A stretch of DNA of 64,000 nucleotides from Halorubrum rubrum (GCF_024494685.1 NZ_JANHDM010000014.1:1-64000); one strand, 5' to 3'. Counted from the first letter of the stretch, positions 10,652 to 19,492 are shown. Program-made: numbers and translations. The notes: generated by a model from the letters alone, not told the origin.

Positions 10652-11245
10652 CTACAATCCCTCGAGCGTTCCCCGGTCGACGGCCTCCGCGTCCATCGGC
10701 TCGCCGCCGTACTCGGCGACGAACGACTCGACGTCCGACTCCTCGCTGAATGGGATCAGCCCCGGCCCCATCGACCCGATCACGTCGCTTCCGGCGACCA
10801 CCGTGAGTTCGGTCGTCCGCGCGAACGCCGAGGACTCGACGTGCGAGGAGAACATGACGTCCGACCCCTCCTCGAAGACCTCCTGGTCGACGATCGAGTA
10901 GTCCGTAAGGAAGGTCACGAGCGGGTCTCGACCGCCGTCCTCGGCGTCGAACCGGTAGGTGTAGGTACAGACGCTGCTACAGAACTGCGCCGGCCTGCCC
11001 CCCTCGGGCTCGTCGTCCGCGAAGTGGACCTGTCCGACCGGACCGGGGTGGTCCCGGATGATCATCCCGCACTGGTCACAGGCCCGTTCGCCGTCGAGCG
11101 AGATCGGCGAGATCGACGCCTCGCCGTCCCCGCCCGCCCCGCCGCCGAGACACCCGGCCAGCGCCAGCGGGACTCCGCTCGCGATCCCGCCCAATACCCG
11201 CCGCCGCGACCGCGGAACCGCCGTCGATCCGTCGTGCGTGTTCAT
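10652..11245 (-). CDS. nosL: NosL-type copper chaperone lipoprotein
   Basis: A 197-residue exported lipoprotein: twin arginines in SRRRVLGGIASG, lipobox LAGC with Cys 32, then a Gly-rich linker. The NosL core begins with CDQCGMIIRDHPGPVGQVHF (Cys 56 and 59), the copper-binding CxxCGM region, followed by a second pair in AQFCSSVC and the typical tail DVIGSMGPGLIPFSEESDVESFVAEYGGE. NosL carries Cu(I) to nitrous oxide reductase in bacteria. It is divergent from the nosDFY operon with 106 bp between starts; a TATA-like CTAAG about 26 bp before the ATG suggests leaderless transcription. Confidence 0.9.
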   Translation of the reverse strand: MNTHDGSTAVPRSRRRVLGGIASGVPLALAGCLGGGAGGDGEASISPISLDGERACDQCGMIIRDHPGPVGQVHFADDEPEGGRPAQFCSSVCTYTYRFDAEDGGRDPLVTFLTDYSIVDQEVFEEGSDVMFSSHVESSAFARTTELTVVAGSDVIGSMGPGLIPFSEESDVESFVAEYGGEPMDAEAVDRGTLEGL

Positions 11246-11299: not shown

Positions 11300-11326
11300 C
11301 GTTCGAGGAACGAACCAGATAGGCTA
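11300..11326 (+). promoter_or_regulatory. Shared copper-island promoter element, nosD copy
   Basis: This 27-bp element begins 52 bp before the nosD GTG. It has CGTTCG (1-6), GA (9-10), C (12), ACCAGA (15-20), G (23) and TA (26-27), all shared with copies before the SafE-type and SCO genes. In this copy the left part is also a perfect dyad, GTTCG-N5-CGAAC (11301-11315), and the right edge runs into the TATA-like GGCTATA about 26 bp before the start codon. The layout suggests an operator or activator site abutting the core promoter. Confidence 0.75.
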
Positions 11327-11351
11327 TACGCCGGGAGATCGAACCGGCAAC

Positions 11352-13607
11352 GTGGCGCTCTTCGACCCCTACGGCGATCGGTTCGGACGGCTCCTCGTCG
11401 CGGTCGCGGTCCTCGCGGTCCTCGCCGGGGTCGCGACCGCCGGCGCGTACGCGGCGGACCCCTCGACGGCGACCCCCGACCCCGTCGCATACGACGACAC
11501 CGTCGAGCTCGGGATCTCCTCCGAGACCGACGAGCTGATGGCGGGATCGGCGCGGGTACCCGGCGTCCAGGTCTTCTACTCGCAGCTCCAGTACGTGGTC
11601 GGCTACAACGGGGTCGAGTCGTTCGCGGCGACGCTCGACGACGGGAGGACCGAACGCCAGTTCGGCTACCCGCTCGTCGTCTACGTCGAGACGTTCGACG
11701 GGGGTGCCCCCGGCGTGACCGACGACGGGCTCTTCGAGGCCGAGCGGTCGACCGACTGGGTGGCCGCGGACGAGGCGGCCTACGTCGTCGGGAGCGCGGC
11801 CCGAAGCCCGGCGGGCGAGACGGTCGTTCCCTTCGCGGACCGCGCGAACGCCGAGCGGTTCGCCGCCGAACACGGCGGGAGCGTCCTCGACTGGGGGGCC
11901 GTCCGGGACCGATCGTTCAGCGTCGACTCGGCGGCGACCGTTCGTTCGATGGCCCCGGCTCGCTGGAGCGAAGCCGACGAGCGAGTCGCCGACGCGACCG
12001 CGAAGGGGCGTTCCGGCGACGAGAGTGTCGGGCGCGACACCGACGGAGACGGGGACGATGGGGACGAGCGCAGCGGGGGAGAGGCGGACGAGATCGTCGT
12101 CAGCGAGGACGCGCCGACGATCGACGCGGCGGTGGCGGCCGCGCCGCCGAACGGGACCGTCGTCGTCCCGGCGGGCACCTACGAGGAGACGGTCACGGTG
12201 AACGAGTCGGTGACGATCGCGGGCGACGGGGCTCGCGTCCGCGGCGACGGGAACGGCTCCGTGATCGCGGTCCGCGCGCCGAACGTGACCCTCTCCGGAC
12301 TGTCGATCGACGGCGTGGGGAACCGGACGCGCGACCCCGAGGCCGCACGCGAGGCGGCCGAGGAGGGCGAAACCTGGGACACCAACATCCAGCTCGGGTA
12401 CGGCCACGGCGACGCGGGGGTCCTCGCCGTCGACGCGCCCGGCCTCCTCGTCGACGACGTCGCGGTCGAGACGAACGCGAGCGGCGTGCTCCTGCGGGAG
12501 GGCTCCGACGCGGTGATCCGCGACCTCCGCGTCGACGGCAGCGACGACTGGCGCGACGGGTTCATGGGCGTCACCGGGATCGAGTCGCGGGTGACCGTGA
12601 CCGACAGCCGGTTCGACGGCGGCCGCGACGGCGTCTACCTCCACCGCGCCGACGGCTCCGTGATCCGGAACTCGACGTTCGTCGGGAACCGGTACGGGAC
12701 CCACCTCATGTACACCGGCGACGCCCTGATCGCGGACAACGCCTTTCGGAACGCCGAGTTCGGCGGGATAACGGTGATGACCCGACCCTCCGGGAACGCG
12801 ATCGTCGGCAACGACGTCCGCGACTCCGGCGCGGGGATCCAGGCGTCCGGCACGCGCTCGTACGTCGGCTACAACACCCTCGCGGACAACGGGCTCGGCT
12901 TCTCGACCAGCTCACGCGGGTCGCTGTACGAGCGCAACGTCGCCGTCGAGAACGAGGTGGGCGCGCACGCGACCACGGTCGTCCCCTCGAGCCGGGTCGT
13001 CGCGAACGACTTCGTCGGTAACGACCGCCACGCGGAGGCCGGTCCGGGCGCACTGCGGATCTGGGCCGACGGCGACCGCGGGAACTACTGGGAGGGCGCG
13101 AACGTCGGGCTCCACGACCCCGGCGAGCGGGCGTACCGCCCGACCGCCCCGGTCGACGCCGCGCTCCACCGCGAGACGGCCGCGGCGGCGGTTCGGGAGT
13201 CGCCCGCGGCAGCCCTCCTCGACCGGCTCTACGGGACGGTCCCCGGCGCGCGATCCGGGAGCATCGTCGACCCCTCGCCGGCCTCGGAGCCGTACGCGCC
13301 CGAGCGTGTCGACGCCGCGGAGTCGGATTCGGAGCCGATCCACCCCGACTGGCGGCGCGCGCTCGGCGGCGCGGATCCGCGAACCGAGGCGACCGCCGAG
13401 GACTCGACGACCGCCGAGGACCCGACGACCGCATCGACCGGCGACACGACCACATCCATCGACACGATGAACGCACGCAAACGGGACGCGACGGACGAGA
13501 CGGCGAGTCGGGAGACTGGAAGCCAGGAGACGGGAAGCCGGGAGACGGGAAGCCGGGAACCGACCGAGGGGTCGCGCCGCTCCGCGGGGGCGGAGGCTCG
13601 CCGATGA
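11352..13607 (+). CDS. nosD: NosD-type protein with an N-terminal NosL-like domain
   Basis: A 751-residue protein from a GTG placed by the leaderless promoter. Residues 12-34 are a signal or anchor helix. Residues about 45-205 resemble NosL: the stretch VVGSAARSPAGETVVPFAD followed by ANAERFAAEHGGSVLDW lines up with the tail of the neighbouring NosL, but the metal cysteines are replaced (FYSQLQ where NosL has FCSSVC). An acidic linker (206-235) leads into a NosD/CASH parallel beta-helix (about 240-610: TIDAAVAAAPPNGTVVVPAGTYEE, GVYLHRADGSVIRNSTF, YGTHLMYTGDALI). The last 110 residues are Thr/Glu/Ser-rich with repeated ETGSR. NosD works with the NosFY ABC transporter in maturing the copper centre of nitrous oxide reductase. 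Confidence 0.88.
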   Translation: MALFDPYGDRFGRLLVAVAVLAVLAGVATAGAYAADPSTATPDPVAYDDTVELGISSETDELMAGSARVPGVQVFYSQLQYVVGYNGVESFAATLDDGRTERQFGYPLVVYVETFDGGAPGVTDDGLFEAERSTDWVAADEAAYVVGSAARSPAGETVVPFADRANAERFAAEHGGSVLDWGAVRDRSFSVDSAATVRSMAPARWSEADERVADATAKGRSGDESVGRDTDGDGDDGDERSGGEADEIVVSEDAPTIDAAVAAAPPNGTVVVPAGTYEETVTVNESVTIAGDGARVRGDGNGSVIAVRAPNVTLSGLSIDGVGNRTRDPEAAREAAEEGETWDTNIQLGYGHGDAGVLAVDAPGLLVDDVAVETNASGVLLREGSDAVIRDLRVDGSDDWRDGFMGVTGIESRVTVTDSRFDGGRDGVYLHRADGSVIRNSTFVGNRYGTHLMYTGDALIADNAFRNAEFGGITVMTRPSGNAIVGNDVRDSGAGIQASGTRSYVGYNTLADNGLGFSTSSRGSLYERNVAVENEVGAHATTVVPSSRVVANDFVGNDRHAEAGPGALRIWADGDRGNYWEGANVGLHDPGERAYRPTAPVDAALHRETAAAAVRESPAAALLDRLYGTVPGARSGSIVDPSPASEPYAPERVDAAESDSEPIHPDWRRALGGADPRTEATAEDSTTAEDPTTASTGDTTTSIDTMNARKRDATDETASRETGSQETGSRETGSREPTEGSRRSAGAEARR

Positions 13608-14368
13608 GCGACGATCCGCTCGCGGAGCTGTCGGACGTCGCACGGACCTACGGCGGCGTGGCGGTCCTGGAGGAGGTCTCACTCGCCGTCCGACCCGGCG
13701 TGACCGCCGTGATCGGGCCGAACGGGTCGGGGAAGTCGACCCTGCTCGGCGTCCTCGCCGGCGCGGTCGAGCCGACCGACGGACGCGCACGATACGCCGG
13801 GCCGGACGTCGACAGGCCGATCGGGTACCTCCCGCAGCGCGTCCCGTTCCGCGAGGAGTTCAGCGCGCGCGAGACGCTCGCGTTCTACGCCCGCCTCGCG
13901 GGCGGCGATCCCGACGAGGCGCTCGAGCGGGTCGGACTCTCCGACGCGGCCCACCGGCGGGTCGGCGCGCTCTCCGGCGGCATGCGCCGGCTGCTCGGCA
14001 TCGCCCAGGCCACGGTCGGCGATCCGCCGCTCGTCGTGCTCGACGAGCCGACGAGCGGGCTCGATCCTGGGATGCGTCGGCGGGCGTTCCGGACCGCGGC
14101 CGACGCCTCCGGAGCCGACACCGCCGTCGTGGTCAGTTCGCACGACCTCGACCTCGCGGACGAGCACGCCGACCGCGTCGTCGTCCTCGACCGCGGGCAC
14201 GTCGCCGCGGCGGGTCCGCGGGAGCGGCTGTGTACGGAACACGGCGTCGACGACGTGGCCGGGCTCTACCGGGCGGTCGTCGCCGGAGCCGGCGTCGGAC
14301 GCGTCTCCGGCGACGCCGACCGCGACGAGCCGAGCGCGGTCCACGTGACGGGGGTGTCTGATCGATGA
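13604..14368 (+). CDS. nosF: NosF-type ABC transporter ATPase
   Basis: A 254-residue ATPase overlapping nosD by 4 bp (ATGA), so translationally coupled. It shows Walker A GPNGSGKST (38-46), Q-loop GYLPQRVPFREEFSAR, signature LSGGMRRLLGIAQA, Walker B LVVLDEPTSGLDPG and switch histidine VVVSSHDLDLADEHADR. Length and the short C-terminal extension are usual for the NosF/CcmA-like subfamily. It should power the membrane complex with NosY, feeding NosD outside the membrane. Confidence 0.92.
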   Translation: MSDDPLAELSDVARTYGGVAVLEEVSLAVRPGVTAVIGPNGSGKSTLLGVLAGAVEPTDGRARYAGPDVDRPIGYLPQRVPFREEFSARETLAFYARLAGGDPDEALERVGLSDAAHRRVGALSGGMRRLLGIAQATVGDPPLVVLDEPTSGLDPGMRRRAFRTAADASGADTAVVVSSHDLDLADEHADRVVVLDRGHVAAAGPRERLCTEHGVDDVAGLYRAVVAGAGVGRVSGDADRDEPSAVHVTGVSDR

Positions 14369-15264
14369 CGGGTCCCGGAGCGGTGACGGGTCCCGGAGCG
14401 GTCCGGGCCCGCGCCGGCGCGGTCGCCACGGTGTTCCGCCGCGAACTGGCGACGGTCCTCCGAACGCCGGGGTACGGCGTCCTCGCGGTCGGGCTGTTCG
14501 CCATCCTGGGAGGTACCCTCGCCGTCGGCGGCGGGGGCAGTACCGGGTTCGTCCCCGCGGTCGTCGACCTGCTTCTCGTGACCGAGGTCGTGGTGCCGCT
14601 CGTCGCGTTCGTGGTCGGGTACCGCGCGCTGCTCACCGACGCGGGAAGCGGCGAGCTCGCGGTGATCCGGACGTATCCCGTGGGCGTCGGCGGCTACGTC
14701 GCCGGCGTGGTTCTCGCGCGCGCGCTCGCGTTCCTGGCGATCGTCGTCGTTCCGTACGCGCTGATCGGCGGGATCGTCTGGGCGACCGCCGCCCCCGACA
14801 CCGGGATCTTCGCGACCCACTCCGGCGTCGACTCCCCGCTCCTGTACCTCCGCTTTCTCGGACTGATAGGTCCGTTCGGTGCGGCCTACCTCTCCGTCGC
14901 AACCGCCGTCTCGGCGGTCGCCTCGAGCCGGCGCGGCGCGGTCGCGATCGCGGTCCTCGCGCTCGTCGCCGGCGTCCTCGGCGGCGACCTCGCGATCCTG
15001 CGGTCGCTGGCGAGCGGGACCTCCCCGTCGGCGATCCCCGGACTGCTCGCTTCCACCCCGAACGGCGCGTTCCGCGGGCTCGTCTTCGAGACGGTTGTCG
15101 GCGTCACGTTCGCGCCGGCCGGCGGATTCGTCGACGTCGGCCGAGCGGTCGGGTCGCTTCTGGCCTGGATCGCCGGCGGAGTCGCCGTCTCGACCGCGAC
15201 GCTCGCGTACGGCGACCGGTTGGACGTCCTTCTCGAGGGCGTTCGAGCGCGGTTCGTCGAGTGA
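14365..15264 (+). CDS. nosY: NosY-type ABC transporter permease
   Basis: A 299-residue membrane protein overlapping nosF by 4 bp. About six hydrophobic segments can be counted (YGVLAVGLFAILGGTLAVG, VVDLLLVTEVVVPLVAFVVGY, YVAGVVLARALAFLAIVVV, GPFGAAYLSVATAVSAVA, AVAIAVLALVAGVLGGDL, VGSLLAWIAGGVAVSTATLAY), the ABC-2 permease pattern of NosY. The N-terminus holds a perfect 18-bp tandem duplication (14366-14383 and 14384-14401, coding TGPGAV twice), a likely slippage product that does not break the frame. Confidence 0.9.
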   Translation: MTGPGAVTGPGAVRARAGAVATVFRRELATVLRTPGYGVLAVGLFAILGGTLAVGGGGSTGFVPAVVDLLLVTEVVVPLVAFVVGYRALLTDAGSGELAVIRTYPVGVGGYVAGVVLARALAFLAIVVVPYALIGGIVWATAAPDTGIFATHSGVDSPLLYLRFLGLIGPFGAAYLSVATAVSAVASSRRGAVAIAVLALVAGVLGGDLAILRSLASGTSPSAIPGLLASTPNGAFRGLVFETVVGVTFAPAGGFVDVGRAVGSLLAWIAGGVAVSTATLAYGDRLDVLLEGVRARFVE

Positions 15265-15290
15265 CGCCCCGGATCTCCGGCTGCGACCGG

Positions 15291-15632
15291 TCACCCCGAC
15301 GCGCTCGGGATCGACCCCGGCGCGTACGCGTACACCGCGTAGAGCACGGTCGCGGCGATCAGGAAGTCGAGGCTGTGCGCGAGGAAGTGGTGGACGGGCA
15401 TCGGGACGTATCCGAGGACGGTCCCCGCGCCGACGACCGATCGCGCTAGGAGCGCCCCCACGGCGACGCTTATGAGCAGATGTCGGCGGCTCCGACGGCG
15501 GCCGTACGCGACCAGGCTCACGAGAAAGAGGAGGCCGGTGCCGATCCCCGCCACGACGACGACGGCCAGTATCGGGAGCGATCCTTCGACGCCCCAGCCG
15601 GCGGCCGAGAACGCTGCGGTCGACGGGCGCAT
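15291..15632 (-). CDS. Small haloarchaeal membrane protein (possibly DUF7471)
   Basis: A 113-residue protein with three predicted transmembrane helices (LPILAVVVVAGIGTGLLFLVSL, LLISVAVGALLARSVVGAGTVLG, FLAHSLDFLIAATVLYAVYAY) and a His-rich turn VHHFLAHSLD between the second and third. I believe it belongs to a haloarchaeal family of unknown function (DUF7471), which I recall near copper and redox genes, but this is recollection. Start: the internal ATG that gives a hydrophobic protein; upstream codons read as shadow. Convergent with nosY, 26 bp from its stop. The paired histidines could bind metal; that is conjecture. Confidence 0.6.
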   Translation of the reverse strand: MRPSTAAFSAAGWGVEGSLPILAVVVVAGIGTGLLFLVSLVAYGRRRSRRHLLISVAVGALLARSVVGAGTVLGYVPMPVHHFLAHSLDFLIAATVLYAVYAYAPGSIPSASG

Positions 15633-15730
15633 GTGATCGACGATTGGACGCGACCGGTTATCAATTATCCGTTGCGACCCTCGCCGGGAGACGCGTTCGC
15701 GATGGATCGAAGGGCGGTGGACGCCCCCGT

Positions 15731-16525
15731 TCACAGCTCGAGGACGTCGCCGCGCTCGGCGACCCGAAACCCCGCCGACGCCAGCCGCTCGCGTGCGTCG
15801 GACGCCGGGTCGAGGAGCGGGTTCGTGTGGTTCAGGTGGGTGAACAGGATTTCCGTGTCGACGTCGTCGAGGACGCGCATCGAGGACCGGACCGTCGGGT
15901 GGGGGACGTCGTCCACGCGGTCGATCTCGTCCCGGCTCCAGAAGGTGCCGTCGACGAGGGCGACGTCGACCTCCCGGATCAGGGACTCGACGCGAGCCGT
16001 CAGCGCGTCGACGTCGCTCACGTACAGAAGCGATCGGTCCGGGCCGTCGATCCGATACGCGAGCGTTCCGGTCGGGAGGGACTCGCGGTGGTCGACGCGG
16101 AGCGGCGTGACCGACGTCGTCTCGAGGGTGACGGCGTCGCCGTCGGCGACCGGTCGGAGGTCGACGTTCCCCTCCGTCACGAGCGAGCGGAGCGGCTCGT
16201 TGTCCCGGATCACGTCTCCGAGCCCGGACGTGGCGTACACCGGAAGTTCGTCCGCGTCGACCGACTCGCGTCCGAAGTACAACAGTCCGGTGAGGTGCCC
16301 GAGGTGGGCGTGCGTCAGGAACGCCCCGTCGGGGACGTCGACGGCTTGAAACCGAACGTCCGGCGTCGAATCGAACAGGTACCGGCCGGCGTCCTCCAGG
16401 CGGACGGCGCTCGCGTACCGCGTCGGGCGGGATCCCTCACGCGCGGCCGCGCAGTTCTCACACCGGCAGCCGACGTGGGGAACACCCGCGTCCTGAGCGG
16501 TTCCGAGGATCTCGACGGTGCTCAC
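15731..16525 (-). CDS. PqqB-like metallo-beta-lactamase-fold hydrolase
   Basis: A 264-residue protein. The N-terminus VEILGTAQDAGVPHVGCRCENCAAAREG with the CxCxxC cluster is the hallmark of the PqqB group (structural zinc), followed by the metal site FLTHAHLGHLTGLLYFGRES (HxHxGH), YVSDVDALT and the terminal ILFTHLNHTNPLLD. PqqB acts in PQQ cofactor assembly, but no pqqA/C/D/E gene is in the window, so an orphan role is likely; many archaeal members are unassigned. Sits within the copper island on the minus strand. Confidence 0.82.
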   Translation of the reverse strand: MSTVEILGTAQDAGVPHVGCRCENCAAAREGSRPTRYASAVRLEDAGRYLFDSTPDVRFQAVDVPDGAFLTHAHLGHLTGLLYFGRESVDADELPVYATSGLGDVIRDNEPLRSLVTEGNVDLRPVADGDAVTLETTSVTPLRVDHRESLPTGTLAYRIDGPDRSLLYVSDVDALTARVESLIREVDVALVDGTFWSRDEIDRVDDVPHPTVRSSMRVLDDVDTEILFTHLNHTNPLLDPASDARERLASAGFRVAERGDVLEL

Positions 16526-16628
16526 GGTGCTCGTCTCGGGCCCGGCGGTCCATGAAGACGGTGCCGGTTTCCGACCCGACGTTTCACGCGCTCACCCGGC
16601 CCCGTCGGACCTGGACGGCAGGGAGGAG

Positions 16629-17060
16629 TCATTCGATCGTCTCCCGGCCGACGACGGTCTCCATCCGTAGTTCGTACAGTGCGAACTCGACGTTTTCGAC
16701 CGTTTCGTCGAAGAGGCGAAACGGCTGGAACCAGTCGTTGAGCGTCGCCTCGTCGGCGTCGCCCTCCCACTCCCGGATCGGGCCGCGAACGTGGATGCTC
16801 CACGACTCGCTCGTAGAAGCGTCATAACACACGAACGTCGCTCGATCGGTCGTCTCCAGGAACCGTCCCTTTTCGCCGTCGTCGTCGTGGGCGCTCACCC
16901 GAAGGAGAAGCCGGTCGCCGTCGTAGTGGTAACTCAGCGGGATCGCGTACGCGTCGTTCCCGTTCGCCAGTCCGAGGACGCCGTGTTCGCCCGCCCGCAG
17001 GTGGTCGTCGACGTCGGACTCGGTCATCCCGCCGGTGTACACGTACTCGACGTGGTCCAT
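16629..17060 (-). CDS. Pyridoxamine 5'-phosphate oxidase-like FMN-binding split-barrel protein
   Basis: A 143-residue protein (MDHVEYVYTGGMTESDVDDHLRAGEHGVLGLANGNDAYAIPLSYHYDGDRLLLRVSAHD...). The run HGVLGLANGNDAYAIPLSYHYDG, then a second strand and WSIHVRGPIREWEGD, is the split-barrel flavin-binding fold shared by PNPOx-like and nitroimidazole-resistance proteins. The flavin and substrate are not readable from sequence. It is related to the protein at 19652-20110, so two paralogs flank the regulator/SafE/SCO genes. A TATA-like CTATTTGAG precedes the ATG by about 25 bp. Confidence 0.75.
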   Translation of the reverse strand: MDHVEYVYTGGMTESDVDDHLRAGEHGVLGLANGNDAYAIPLSYHYDGDRLLLRVSAHDDDGEKGRFLETTDRATFVCYDASTSESWSIHVRGPIREWEGDADEATLNDWFQPFRLFDETVENVEFALYELRMETVVGRETIE

Positions 17061-17199
17061 ACGAAACGGGACGCGGCGGTCCCTCAAATAGGCTCGCCGA
17101 CTCCCTCCCAACCGACACGTTCGTATCGCGGAGCCCTCTCAACGAGGGGGAACGGACGAGCGGTTTTTACGCGGGGATCCGGTAGCTTCGGTGACTACC

Positions 17200-17703
17200 A
17201 TGCCGGACACCAGATCTCGGGTCCGCGACCACGTCCGGGAGACGCCGGGCGTCCACTTCAACCGCGTAAGCCGGGAGCTCGGCATCGCGACCGGACAGGC
17301 GCAGTACCACCTCCGCCGGCTGGTCCGCGACGACGAGGTCGCCGTCGAGCGCGTCGCCGGTCGCGCTCACTACTTCGATCCGACGTTCGACCCGTGGGAG
17401 CGACGGGCCATCGCCTTCCTCCGACGCGAGACCGCACGAGCGATCCTTCTCCGGCTCCACGCGGAGGGCGCGACGCCACCGTCGGTGCTCGCCGACGACC
17501 TCGACCTCGCGCGGAGCACCATCTCCTGGCACGTCTCGAATCTCGTCGACGCCGGGATAGCCGAGAAGTCCGCGGACCGGCCCATGACCGTCGAACTGGC
17601 TCGACCCGAGCGGACCGCCGAGCTGCTCGACGCCGTCTCGCCGTCGCTTCCGGACCGGATCGTCGACCGGTTCGTTCGGACCGTCGACACCCTCTTCGAG
17701 TGA
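17200..17703 (+). CDS. Transcriptional regulator with two winged-helix domains
   Basis: A 167-residue protein. Residues 4-55 (RVRDHVRETPGVHFNRVSRELGIATGQAQYHLRRLVRDDEVAVERV) form one winged helix and about 70-130 (IAFLRRETARAILLRLHAEGATPPSVLADDLDLARSTISWHVSNLVDAG) a second, both with clear recognition helices. The layout matches haloarchaeal tandem wHTH regulators of the ArsR/MarR type. No ligand-binding cysteines occur, so any metal sensing would be indirect. A GTG at 17191 is in frame and fits the TTTTTAC box slightly better as a leaderless start. Location beside two genes with the shared 27-bp promoter element makes it the natural candidate regulator. Confidence 0.8.
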   Translation: MPDTRSRVRDHVRETPGVHFNRVSRELGIATGQAQYHLRRLVRDDEVAVERVAGRAHYFDPTFDPWERRAIAFLRRETARAILLRLHAEGATPPSVLADDLDLARSTISWHVSNLVDAGIAEKSADRPMTVELARPERTAELLDAVSPSLPDRIVDRFVRTVDTLFE

Positions 17704-17753
17704 GTCGAAAGTCGGCTTTCCCGGCGCGCTCCGCTCGATCCGTGCGACCCGGT

Positions 17754-17780
17754 CGTTCGTCGACCACACCAGATCGGTTA
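17754..17780 (+). promoter_or_regulatory. Shared copper-island promoter element, SafE-type gene copy
   Basis: The element begins 52 bp before the ATG at 17806 and matches the SCO copy at 22 of 27 positions and the nosD copy at 20 of 27. CGTTCG and ACCAGA are intact; the right half-site of the dyad is weaker (CACAC in place of CGAAC). Its right end overlaps the TATA-like GGTTAG about 27 bp before the start codon. Confidence 0.75.
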
Positions 17781-17805
17781 GGGTCGGACGCCGTCGAGAT
17801 CGGGT

Positions 17806-18699
17806 ATGCGCTCGATCCCGGTCGTGGCCGGTTCCGATACGCTCCGTGCGCGGGGAGGCGTCGTCTCGAGCGGGCTCGAAGCCGTCCGCGGGGCGGCGTC
17901 GACGTCCACGTCGACGTGTGAACCGGCCGGCTCCATTCACTCGAGCGAGCCGTTGGGTCTCGTCGTGTTTCTGCTGATCGGCCTGCTCGGCGGGGCGCAC
18001 TGTCTCGGGATGTGCGGGCCGCTCGTCACGACGTACACAGACCGGATGCGGACCGGCGGGCGCCGCGGTGACGACCTCACGGTCCGGCAGGTTCGCCAGC
18101 ACGCGCTCTTCAACGTCGGACGAACGGCGAGCTACGCGGCCATCGGGGGGACGTTCGGGTTCGCCGGTGGGCTCGCGTTCGTCACCGGCCGAACCGTCAC
18201 GACGATCGCCGACGACGTCCACGCGCTCACGGGAATCCTCGTCGGCGGTGTCATCATCGCGATCGGCGTCCGGTACGCGCTCCGACTCGACCGCCACTCG
18301 CTTCCCGCCCCCGGCGTCGACCGCCTCTCGGGTGTCGTCACCGGGCGGGTCGTGCCGCGCATCGACGCGTGGGTCGGCGACTGGCGAATACTCGGGCTCG
18401 GCGCCGCTCACGGTCTGCTTCCGTGTCCCCTGTTGTACCCGGCCTTCCTCTACGCGTTCGTCCAAGGCAGCGCCGCCGGCGGGGTCGTCGCGCTCGGGGC
18501 GCTCGGCGTCGGAACGATCCCGGCGATGTTCCTCTTCGGAACGGCGTTTCAGTCCGTGAGCGTCGGGACTCGCACCCGGCTCCATCGGGTCCTCGGCGTG
18601 GCGTTCGTCGTCCTCGGCTACGTTCCGCTTCAGCACGGGCTGGCGACGCTCGGCGTTCCGCTTCCGCATCCGCCGATCCCGTACTACTCGCCGTTCTGA
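17806..18699 (+). CDS. TauE/SafE-type membrane protein (UreH-like transmembrane domain), probable copper-enzyme assembly
   Basis: A 297-residue protein with a polar 45-residue N-terminus and about six transmembrane segments. The first helix region LGLVVFLLIGLLGGAHCLGMCGPLV has HCxxxC (Cys 66 and 70) preceded by GG, typical of the subfamily associated with cytochrome oxidase and copper assembly. A second set of conserved small residues appears in ILGLGAAHGLLPCPLLYPAFLYA (another HGLLPC). These paired H-x(n)-C motifs in both halves suggest metal or thiol transfer across the membrane. The following gene is SCO, and both share the 27-bp promoter element. TATA spacing supports this ATG. Confidence 0.82.
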   Translation: MRSIPVVAGSDTLRARGGVVSSGLEAVRGAASTSTSTCEPAGSIHSSEPLGLVVFLLIGLLGGAHCLGMCGPLVTTYTDRMRTGGRRGDDLTVRQVRQHALFNVGRTASYAAIGGTFGFAGGLAFVTGRTVTTIADDVHALTGILVGGVIIAIGVRYALRLDRHSLPAPGVDRLSGVVTGRVVPRIDAWVGDWRILGLGAAHGLLPCPLLYPAFLYAFVQGSAAGGVVALGALGVGTIPAMFLFGTAFQSVSVGTRTRLHRVLGVAFVVLGYVPLQHGLATLGVPLPHPPIPYYSPF

Positions 18700-18749
18700 G
18701 CGGACGACGATCGCCGGTTCTCGGGAGCGATCGGTGCCGGTCGGTGGCC

Positions 18750-18776
18750 CGTTCGACGACCGCACCAGACCGACTA
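18750..18776 (+). promoter_or_regulatory. Shared copper-island promoter element, SCO gene copy
   Basis: The element begins 53 bp before the ATG at 18803 and matches the nosD copy at 21 of 27 positions. CGTTCG, GA, ACCAGA and the terminal TA are intact. The TATA-like GACTAT at its right end is about 27 bp before the start, the same geometry as the other two copies. It lies only 51 bp after the SafE-type gene, so SCO probably has its own promoter in spite of the tandem order. Confidence 0.75.
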
Positions 18777-18802
18777 TCCGCGGGCAGTCCGTCGGATCCG
18801 AC

Positions 18803-19492
18803 ATGAGACGCCGAGCGCTGCTCGGAGGGATGGGCGCGGCCGCGATCGGATCCGTCGCCGGCTGTACGACGAGACTGCTGGACGACGAGCCGGATGGAGT
18901 CGTCCTCGAACCCCAGGAGGACCAGATCGCGGACGCCGAGGACCTCTCGTATCCCGCCTACGGCCAGCCGTTGCCCGAGTTCGAGCTTCGGGCGCCGCTC
19001 GCCGGGGAGACGATCTCCAGCACCGATCTCGATCGGACCGCGATCGTCACGGCGATATTCACCTCGTGTCCCGCCGAGTGTGGGATACTCCTCAACCGCC
19101 TCGTCGGCGTTCAACGGCGGGTCGCCGAGGCGGGGCTGACCGACTCGGTCGTCTTCCTCCCGATCACGTTCGATCCCGAGCGCGACGACGCGCAGGCGTT
19201 CCGCGAGAACGCCGAGTCGCTCGGCGTGGACCTGGAGGCGGGCAACTGGCACTACCTGCGGCCGGACTCGCCCGCGGACGCGAAGGCGGTGGTCGAGGAC
19301 CGGCTGGGGATCGGCTTCGAACGAAAGACGGAGAGCGACCGGCTCGAGGGGTACGACTTCACGCACGCCGTGGTGACGCTGCTCGCGAATCCGGACGGGG
19401 TCGTCGAGCGGGCCTACCGCGGCGAGGGCATCGACCGGGACCGCGTCGTCGACGACATCGCCGCGGTGGTCGACGCGTTCTCGGCCGAGTGA
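18803..19492 (+). CDS. SCO family copper-binding lipoprotein
   Basis: A 229-residue exported thioredoxin-fold protein. MRRRALLGGMGAAAIGSVAGC is a twin-arginine signal with lipobox Cys 21. The SCO copper site is present: TSCPAECGILL (CxxxC, Cys 89 and 93) and the distal histidine in YDFTHAVVTLL (His 188). The core FLPITFDPERDDAQAFRENAESLG is the usual SCO segment. SCO proteins load the CuA centre of cytochrome oxidases and, in some denitrifiers, serve nitrous oxide reductase. It follows the SafE-type gene by 103 bp. Confidence 0.9.
   Translation: MRRRALLGGMGAAAIGSVAGCTTRLLDDEPDGVVLEPQEDQIADAEDLSYPAYGQPLPEFELRAPLAGETISSTDLDRTAIVTAIFTSCPAECGILLNRLVGVQRRVAEAGLTDSVVFLPITFDPERDDAQAFRENAESLGVDLEAGNWHYLRPDSPADAKAVVEDRLGIGFERKTESDRLEGYDFTHAVVTLLANPDGVVERAYRGEGIDRDRVVDDIAAVVDAFSAE

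Follow-up and report, generated by a model that had tools for sequence, protein, structure and literature searches.

The window analyzed here is a stretch of 64,000 nt from Halorubrum rubrum (GCF_024494685.1 NZ_JANHDM010000014.1:1-64000), an organism with a whole genome of 3.2 Mb. Within this window lie a nosDFY gene set with a divergent nosL gene, a gene for a tandem winged-helix regulator, and genes for a SafE-type membrane protein and a SCO1/SenC-family protein (Table 1), and nosD, the SafE-type gene, and SCO are each preceded by a copy of one short sequence element. Read directly, the copies are CGTTCGAGGAACGAACCAGATAGGCTA before nosD (11300-11326), CGTTCGTCGACCACACCAGATCGGTTA before the SafE-type gene (17754-17780), and CGTTCGACGACCGCACCAGACCGACTA before SCO (18750-18776); they begin 52, 52, and 53 bp upstream of the start codons at 11352 (GTG), 17806 (ATG), and 18803 (ATG), respectively, and 18 of their 27 columns are identical. 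These positions, distances, and identities are exactly those given in a preliminary description of this DNA, and the dyad GTTCG-N5-CGAAC that it reported in the nosD copy is indeed present. The element had also been described as 27 bp long and ending at a TATA-like box; the first 20 bp, through ACCAGA, proved to be conserved, whereas the last 7 bp are a spacer running into that box. In the window, the 20-bp core reads CG-TTCGA-N4-CNN-ACCAGA, with A7 and G12 being majority bases rather than invariant ones.

Random triples (8000) were drawn from the sequences upstream of the 54 called genes of the window and compared at equal distance (+/-3) for their best 27-nt match; none exceeded 13 identical columns of 27, versus 18 in the three real copies. 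A pattern of the 18 shared positions with up to 3 mismatches was expected 0.13 times per 64 kb and matched only the three copies in the window, a rarity that is circular when taken alone because the pattern was built from the same copies. When the 20-bp core, CGTTCGNNNANCNNACCAGA, was searched with up to 1 mismatch, the whole genome yielded the three window copies only; a fourth good copy, with 2 mismatches, lies on contig 6, 52 bp before a second SafE gene. A genome scan that combined the pattern with a start codon at the right distance returned the three window copies, the copy before the second SafE gene, and one match carrying ACCAGT, which was taken as a chance occurrence. Loose patterns were useless, as a 20-mer with 2 mismatches gave 60 matches in the window versus 74 expected.

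The element is conserved throughout the genus. Matches were found in 50 of 52 Halorubrum genomes, in which the copy before nosD hardly varies and others lie elsewhere, 51 to 54 bp before SCO, SafE, NosL-like, nosD, and DUF7405 genes. Over 27 to 36 orthologues per gene, identity to the window was 78 to 90% in the element, compared to 27 to 42% just upstream and 41 to 52% in the spacer to the start (for the nosD copy in 31 orthologues, 90%, 42%, and 52%, respectively), values that carry a small bias since the start chosen was the one giving the best site within 60 nt. Spacing to the start codon is conserved as well, being 52 bp in 30 of 31 nosD, 53 bp in all 36 SCO, and 52 or 53 bp in all 27 SafE orthologues. 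SCO adjoins cydAB (cytochrome bd oxidase) in some Halorubrum genomes (L060 4209-7779 and L061 4472-6949), and cydA there is without the element.

Loci of the regulator from other families carry the same element at 52 to 54 bp, and a class-wide scan of 292 Halobacteria genomes found the exact core, TTCGANNNNCNNACCAGA, in 225 of them, a count that rests on a strict pattern and misses diverged sites. Among 109 matches from genomes that bear the regulator, start codons 50 to 52 nt from the first T of the core accounted for 55 counts, versus about 0.8 per position elsewhere. The scan of related genomes proposed in the preliminary description gave a sharp start-codon peak at this distance. Because the reversed-pattern control was not matched for CpG content, we relied on position and on the families of the downstream genes. 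Of 64 correctly placed exact copies in all genomes examined, 61 precede genes for DUF7405 (18), DUF7350 (17), SCO (10), NosL (6), SafE (4), NosD (4), HiPIP (1), and one membrane family (1); these 64 matches came from whole-genome scans and so were not selected by gene neighborhood, but the genomes were chosen for having several matches, and scan matches had supplied the HiPIP and membrane-family references. This gene set agrees with the earlier suggestion of copper-centre assembly as the common theme. The additional targets that had been anticipated (nosZ, halocyanins, and oxidase subunits) were not among the matches, and none of the nosZ upstream regions from 20 relatives contained the element.

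DUF7405 and DUF7350 proteins, which are twin-arginine translocation (Tat) lipoproteins, are the commonest element carriers outside Halorubrum (L243, L246, L258, L295, and L436). A match to the P19-type Iron_transport domain was also found in the DUF7350 proteins, and a weak one to DyP peroxidases in DUF7405; the two families may possibly serve copper-linked metal uptake. One class of exact match was rejected as regulatory sites: the pairs TTCGAAAGACAAACCAGA and TTCGATGACCCAACCAGA, repeated in several genomes, lack a start codon at the distance expected of a site. They recur identically 1 to 3.8 kb apart in distant genomes (L267 3616-4640 [G109:C4], L268, L249, and L244) and perhaps mark a shared mobile region. 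In L267, one of the pair is at the start of an Lrp-like gene whose product has a cysteine-rich C terminus, and the other is inside a stress-protein gene.

The consensus of 111 nonredundant sites reads CG-TTCGA-[CG]G-N-N-CGC-ACCAGA and forms an imperfect dyad (GTTCGA-N3-TCGCAC) that is clearest in the nosD copy; the ACCA is almost invariant. A weak TATA-like box follows the core after 5 bp, at about -28; an A/T pair is found near -10, and the element lies 52 to 54 bp before the start codon. This distance is held across unrelated genes and many genera, in agreement with the earlier placement of the element where a regulator would act at the promoter. Judged from the established structure of haloarchaeal promoters, these promoters look leaderless, such that the element would occupy about -52 to -33 and ACCAGA (about -38 to -33) would reach the TFB-recognition region. 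Two copies stand back to back between some divergent gene pairs. At one such locus (L441 6300-6342; G109:C1:780302-780337), the copies abut between divergent DUF7405 and membrane-protein genes, an arrangement that recurs in several genomes of that genus.

The protein encoded at 17200-17703 had been named as the nearest candidate binder. It matches the HVO_0163-type domain PF24266 with 120.3 bits against a cutoff of 31; all 19 aligned members (the window protein and 18 relatives) score above this cutoff. An AlphaFold2 model (predicted local distance difference test score, 89.5) contains two winged helices (two HHH-EE units), and the second domain resembles the ArsR/SmtB sensors. Against NCBIfam HTH_metalloreg, the protein scored 36 bits, below the cutoff of 55, and the 19 aligned members have no conserved cysteine metal ligands; His 19, 37, 57, and 111 are invariant. 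Depending on the lineage, its orthologues adjoin nosDFY, SCO, SafE, NosL, DUF7405, or DUF7350, nearly always with DUF7471 beside them.

A correctly placed element was found within 9 kb in 76 of 100 regulator loci (median distance, 88 bp). Near the regulator, the element precedes 51 of 57 SCO, 46 of 59 NosD, 27 of 38 SafE, 26 of 62 NosL, 9 of 12 DUF7350, and 8 of 11 DUF7405 genes, compared to none of 100 regulator genes, 83 DUF7471 genes, or 3 cydA genes. Autoregulation was rejected, since no element precedes the regulator gene in those 100 loci. DUF7471 (15291-15734, minus strand, in the window) is a near-constant neighbor of the regulator in 83 loci, never with the element, and is possibly its partner. 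At the level of whole genomes, a placed element was present in 192 of the 245 genomes that have a regulator orthologue and in 9 of the 47 that do not (odds ratio, 15; p = 1e-14), absence being defined by a gap in the scores, with a best E value worse than 1e-30. Stratified by genus in a table compiled by hand, which handles phylogenetic dependence only partly, the odds ratio was 5.5 (p = 0.004). This co-occurrence is an association and not proof; nevertheless, adjacency to element-bearing genes and the tracking of the element with the presence of the protein favor 17200-17703 as the probable binder.

The window NosD, which contains a NosL-like segment at residues 129 to 186, scored above the cutoff for Pfam NosD, whereas against TIGR04247 (nitrous oxide reductase maturation) it reached 172 bits, under the cutoff of 300. 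No element was found on the minus strand before the window nosL. No nos_propeller match, and hence no nosZ, was found in this 98%-complete genome, though nosD, nosF, nosY, and nosL are present; 30 of 52 genomes of the genus have such a match. The element as a nosZ-linked feature was rejected because this genome is without nosZ. DUF7405 is likewise absent, so that part of the putative regulon is not present here. On the best explanation, the element would drive four promoters in this genome, those of nosDFY, SafE, SCO, and the second SafE gene.

Table 1. Features of the element-bearing region (window coordinates)
Feature	Coordinates	Strand	Evidence or remark
nosL, divergent from nosD	10652..11245	-	Pfam NosL 117 bits
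Element copy 1, 20-bp core	11300..11319	+	52 bp before nosD start; contains dyad GTTCG-N5-CGAAC
TATA-like box, nosD promoter (TATA)	11325..11328	+	Sequence; column consensus over 111 sites
nosD (NosL-like N-terminal segment and NosD beta helix), first of nosDFY	11352..13607	+	Pfam NosD 80 bits, NosL 51 bits
nosF, ATP-binding cassette (ABC) ATPase	13604..14368	+	Open reading frame (ORF) overlaps nosD stop; syntenic with regulator loci elsewhere
nosY, ABC membrane subunit	14365..15264	+	ORF and synteny; no Pfam match
DUF7471 membrane protein, constant neighbor of the regulator	15291..15734	-	Pfam; without element
Tandem winged-helix regulator, HVO_0163 type, candidate binder	17200..17703	+	PF24266 120 bits, HTH_20 50 bits
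Element copy 2, 20-bp core	17754..17773	+	52 bp before SafE-type gene
Weak TATA-like box, SafE promoter (TTA)	17778..17780	+	Sequence; column consensus
SafE-type membrane protein (DsbD_2)	17806..18699	+	PF13386 162.9 bits vs cutoff 24.9
Element copy 3, 20-bp core	18750..18769	+	53 bp before SCO
Weak TATA-like box, SCO promoter (TAT)	18775..18777	+	Sequence; column consensus
SCO1/SenC-family Tat lipoprotein	18803..19492	+	PF02630 46.6 bits vs cutoff 22.8; CPAEC in sequence

Several known systems invite comparison. The NarO-type denitrification motif of Haloferax, CGAAN4TTCG or CGAAYATDKTYG, belongs to the nir, nor, and nosZ genes, where it precedes the ATG by 66 to 79 nt (PMC10062603). Like the element, it is semipalindromic, contains CGAA/TTCG words, and is found in haloarchaeal promoters of copper-enzyme genes; unlike the element, it is without ACCAGA and is not set at 52 to 54 bp, and the element is absent from nosZ promoters. 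CGAAN4TTCG has no match in the nosD, SafE, and SCO promoters of the window. Identity of the element with the NarO/denitrification motif was rejected on these differences in sequence and position and on the nosZ promoters. Some nosZ promoters carry the NarO-type motif instead of the element; in one Halorubrum group (L416, L418, L420, L422, and L435), the NarO-type motif CGAACGTGTTCG stands at about -109 before the nosZ start.

A closer likeness is to the upstream activating sequences (UASs) of the haloarchaeal activators GvpE and Bat, which are about 20 bp long, lie directly upstream of the TFB recognition element (BRE) and TATA box with strict spacing and a weak core promoter, and may occur as back-to-back pairs between divergent genes. 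Fixed spacing of this kind was found for the element, at 52 to 54 bp from the start and with 5 bp between the core and the TATA-like column. The two differ in sequence, target genes, and regulator family, neither Bat nor GvpE being a winged-helix protein of the HVO_0163 type. Archaeal CopR-type regulators (Pyrococcus CopR and the Lrp-like regulator beside copA in Haloferax) also control copper genes, but they are tied to copA-type efflux genes (PMC10694973; PMC7830388), whereas the genes found here are for extracytoplasmic delivery and maturation; moreover, the candidate regulator has no conserved cysteine. In the papers searched, which excluded most subscription journals, no description was found of the element, of a binding site or regulon for the HVO_0163-type family, or of a function for DUF7405 or DUF7350.

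We consider it probable, at about 0.6, that the element serves as the activator site for a regulon of extracytoplasmic copper delivery that spans the class, with the HVO_0163-type protein at 17200-17703 as its most likely binder. In this view, a haloarchaeal transcription regulator would bind the 20-bp element, which abuts the upstream side of the TFB/TATA region in leaderless promoters, and the regulon would comprise SCO, SafE/DsbD_2, NosL, and NosDFY along with DUF7350 and DUF7405. By family, most of these targets handle copper or thiols; they are located outside the cytoplasm or are membrane partners of such proteins. The regulator would most likely activate the weak-TATA promoters by aiding TFB/TBP, with activation presumably timed to the loading of extracytoplasmic copper proteins. 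Weak TATA boxes and rigid spacing make activation likelier than repression; in the GvpE system, too, the UAS must lie close to the BRE (PMC4390858).

NosDFY is usually tied to nitrous oxide reductase. We read the regulon as one of general copper delivery because there is no nosZ in this genome, the 20 nosZ promoters are without the element, and nosFY without nosZ has been reported for Haloferax volcanii (PMC9240420). Copper would most likely be delivered to CuA and other extracytoplasmic copper proteins. Two reports touch on the signal but do not settle it: in H. mediterranei, denitrifying conditions strongly induce an SCO operon (PMC11218638), and the HVO_0163 protein rises under hypochlorite (PMC10294847).

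Several observations weigh against this reading. At least four genomes carry the element without a recognizable regulator orthologue, before SafE in G042 and G295 and before DUF7405 and other genes in G168 and G191, although G191 keeps a regulator remnant. (The G042 site, L437 4158-5004, is a good copy before a SafE gene, and no regulator orthologue was found in that genome.) Conversely, in Halobacterium salinarum DSM 3754 (L400 418-2060), the regulator and DUF7471 lie beside a partly matching nosD homologue, and no element was found. Furthermore, 53 of the 245 regulator-bearing genomes lack a placed exact copy, which is partly a matter of pattern strictness. Copper sensing is not evident, since conserved cysteines are absent from the regulator and its score is below the ArsR metalloregulator cutoff. 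The position of the element would suit a repressor that covers the TFB region as well.

That last possibility, in which the same protein binds over the TFB-recognition region and is released in copper (or oxidant) excess, is the strongest of the alternatives, though we regard it as unlikely. ACCAGA would lie at about -38 to -33, where TFB binds, the second winged helix is like those of the ArsR/SmtB-type sensors, which are usually repressors, and more HVO_0163 protein is present under hypochlorite (PMC10294847). However, a repressor could work without the spacing to the TATA box being held to within about 1 bp in every gene, the promoters seem weak in themselves, and the regulator has no cysteine metal site. 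It is less probable again that the element is bound by a different regulator (an HVO_0163-family paralogue or an HTH_10 protein of the Bat/NarO type) while the 17200-17703 protein merely travels with the cluster. In favor of such a binder, element-bearing genes occur in genomes without a clear regulator orthologue, the position is like that of UAS elements of known haloarchaeal activators, and the HVO_0163 family has several paralogues per genome. Against it stand the within-genus association with the 17200-17703 orthologue and the adjacency of that orthologue to many different element-bearing genes, and the NarO-type motif CGAAN4TTCG is unlike the element in both sequence and position.

We think it quite improbable that the element is a specialized core promoter, that is, a variant recognition element for one TFB paralogue and not an activator site. 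Haloarchaea do carry several TFB and TBP paralogues (PMC1447603), and the almost invariant ACCA adjoins the TATA region; yet the TTCGA half, at about -50 to -46, would lie outside the usual TFB contact, and the link to the winged-helix gene would be left unexplained. Chance similarity or local duplication of one promoter, to which the 1-kb distance between SafE and SCO might point, is already refuted by the recurrence of the element at the same distance before nonhomologous genes across the class and by the 18 identical columns versus at most 13 in random triples.

Going further than the activator reading, we tentatively entertain, at odds that run against it, a more specific picture in which a cysteine-free tandem winged-helix activator, sensing copper (perhaps via the invariant histidines) or the demand for copper proteins, runs the class-wide copper-supply regulon through a UAS. 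This regulon would use NosDFY without nitrous oxide reductase, and DUF7350 (P19-like) and DUF7405 (DyP-like) would be an uncharacterized copper-linked metal-handling system.

A UAS with its regulator is a known kind of system, and it is the regulon itself that appears to be new. For only a few archaeal regulators are both the binding site and the regulon known, and the papers searched did not describe what switches copper-centre assembly in haloarchaea. The element offers a sequence-level handle, usable class-wide, that predicts targets, including two families (DUF7350 and DUF7405) not tied to copper before in those papers, and HVO_0163, from the family of the candidate regulator, is encoded by the genetic model Haloferax volcanii. 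Finally, these results suggest why haloarchaea without nosZ keep nosDFY, which would belong to a general copper-delivery regulon and not to denitrification.

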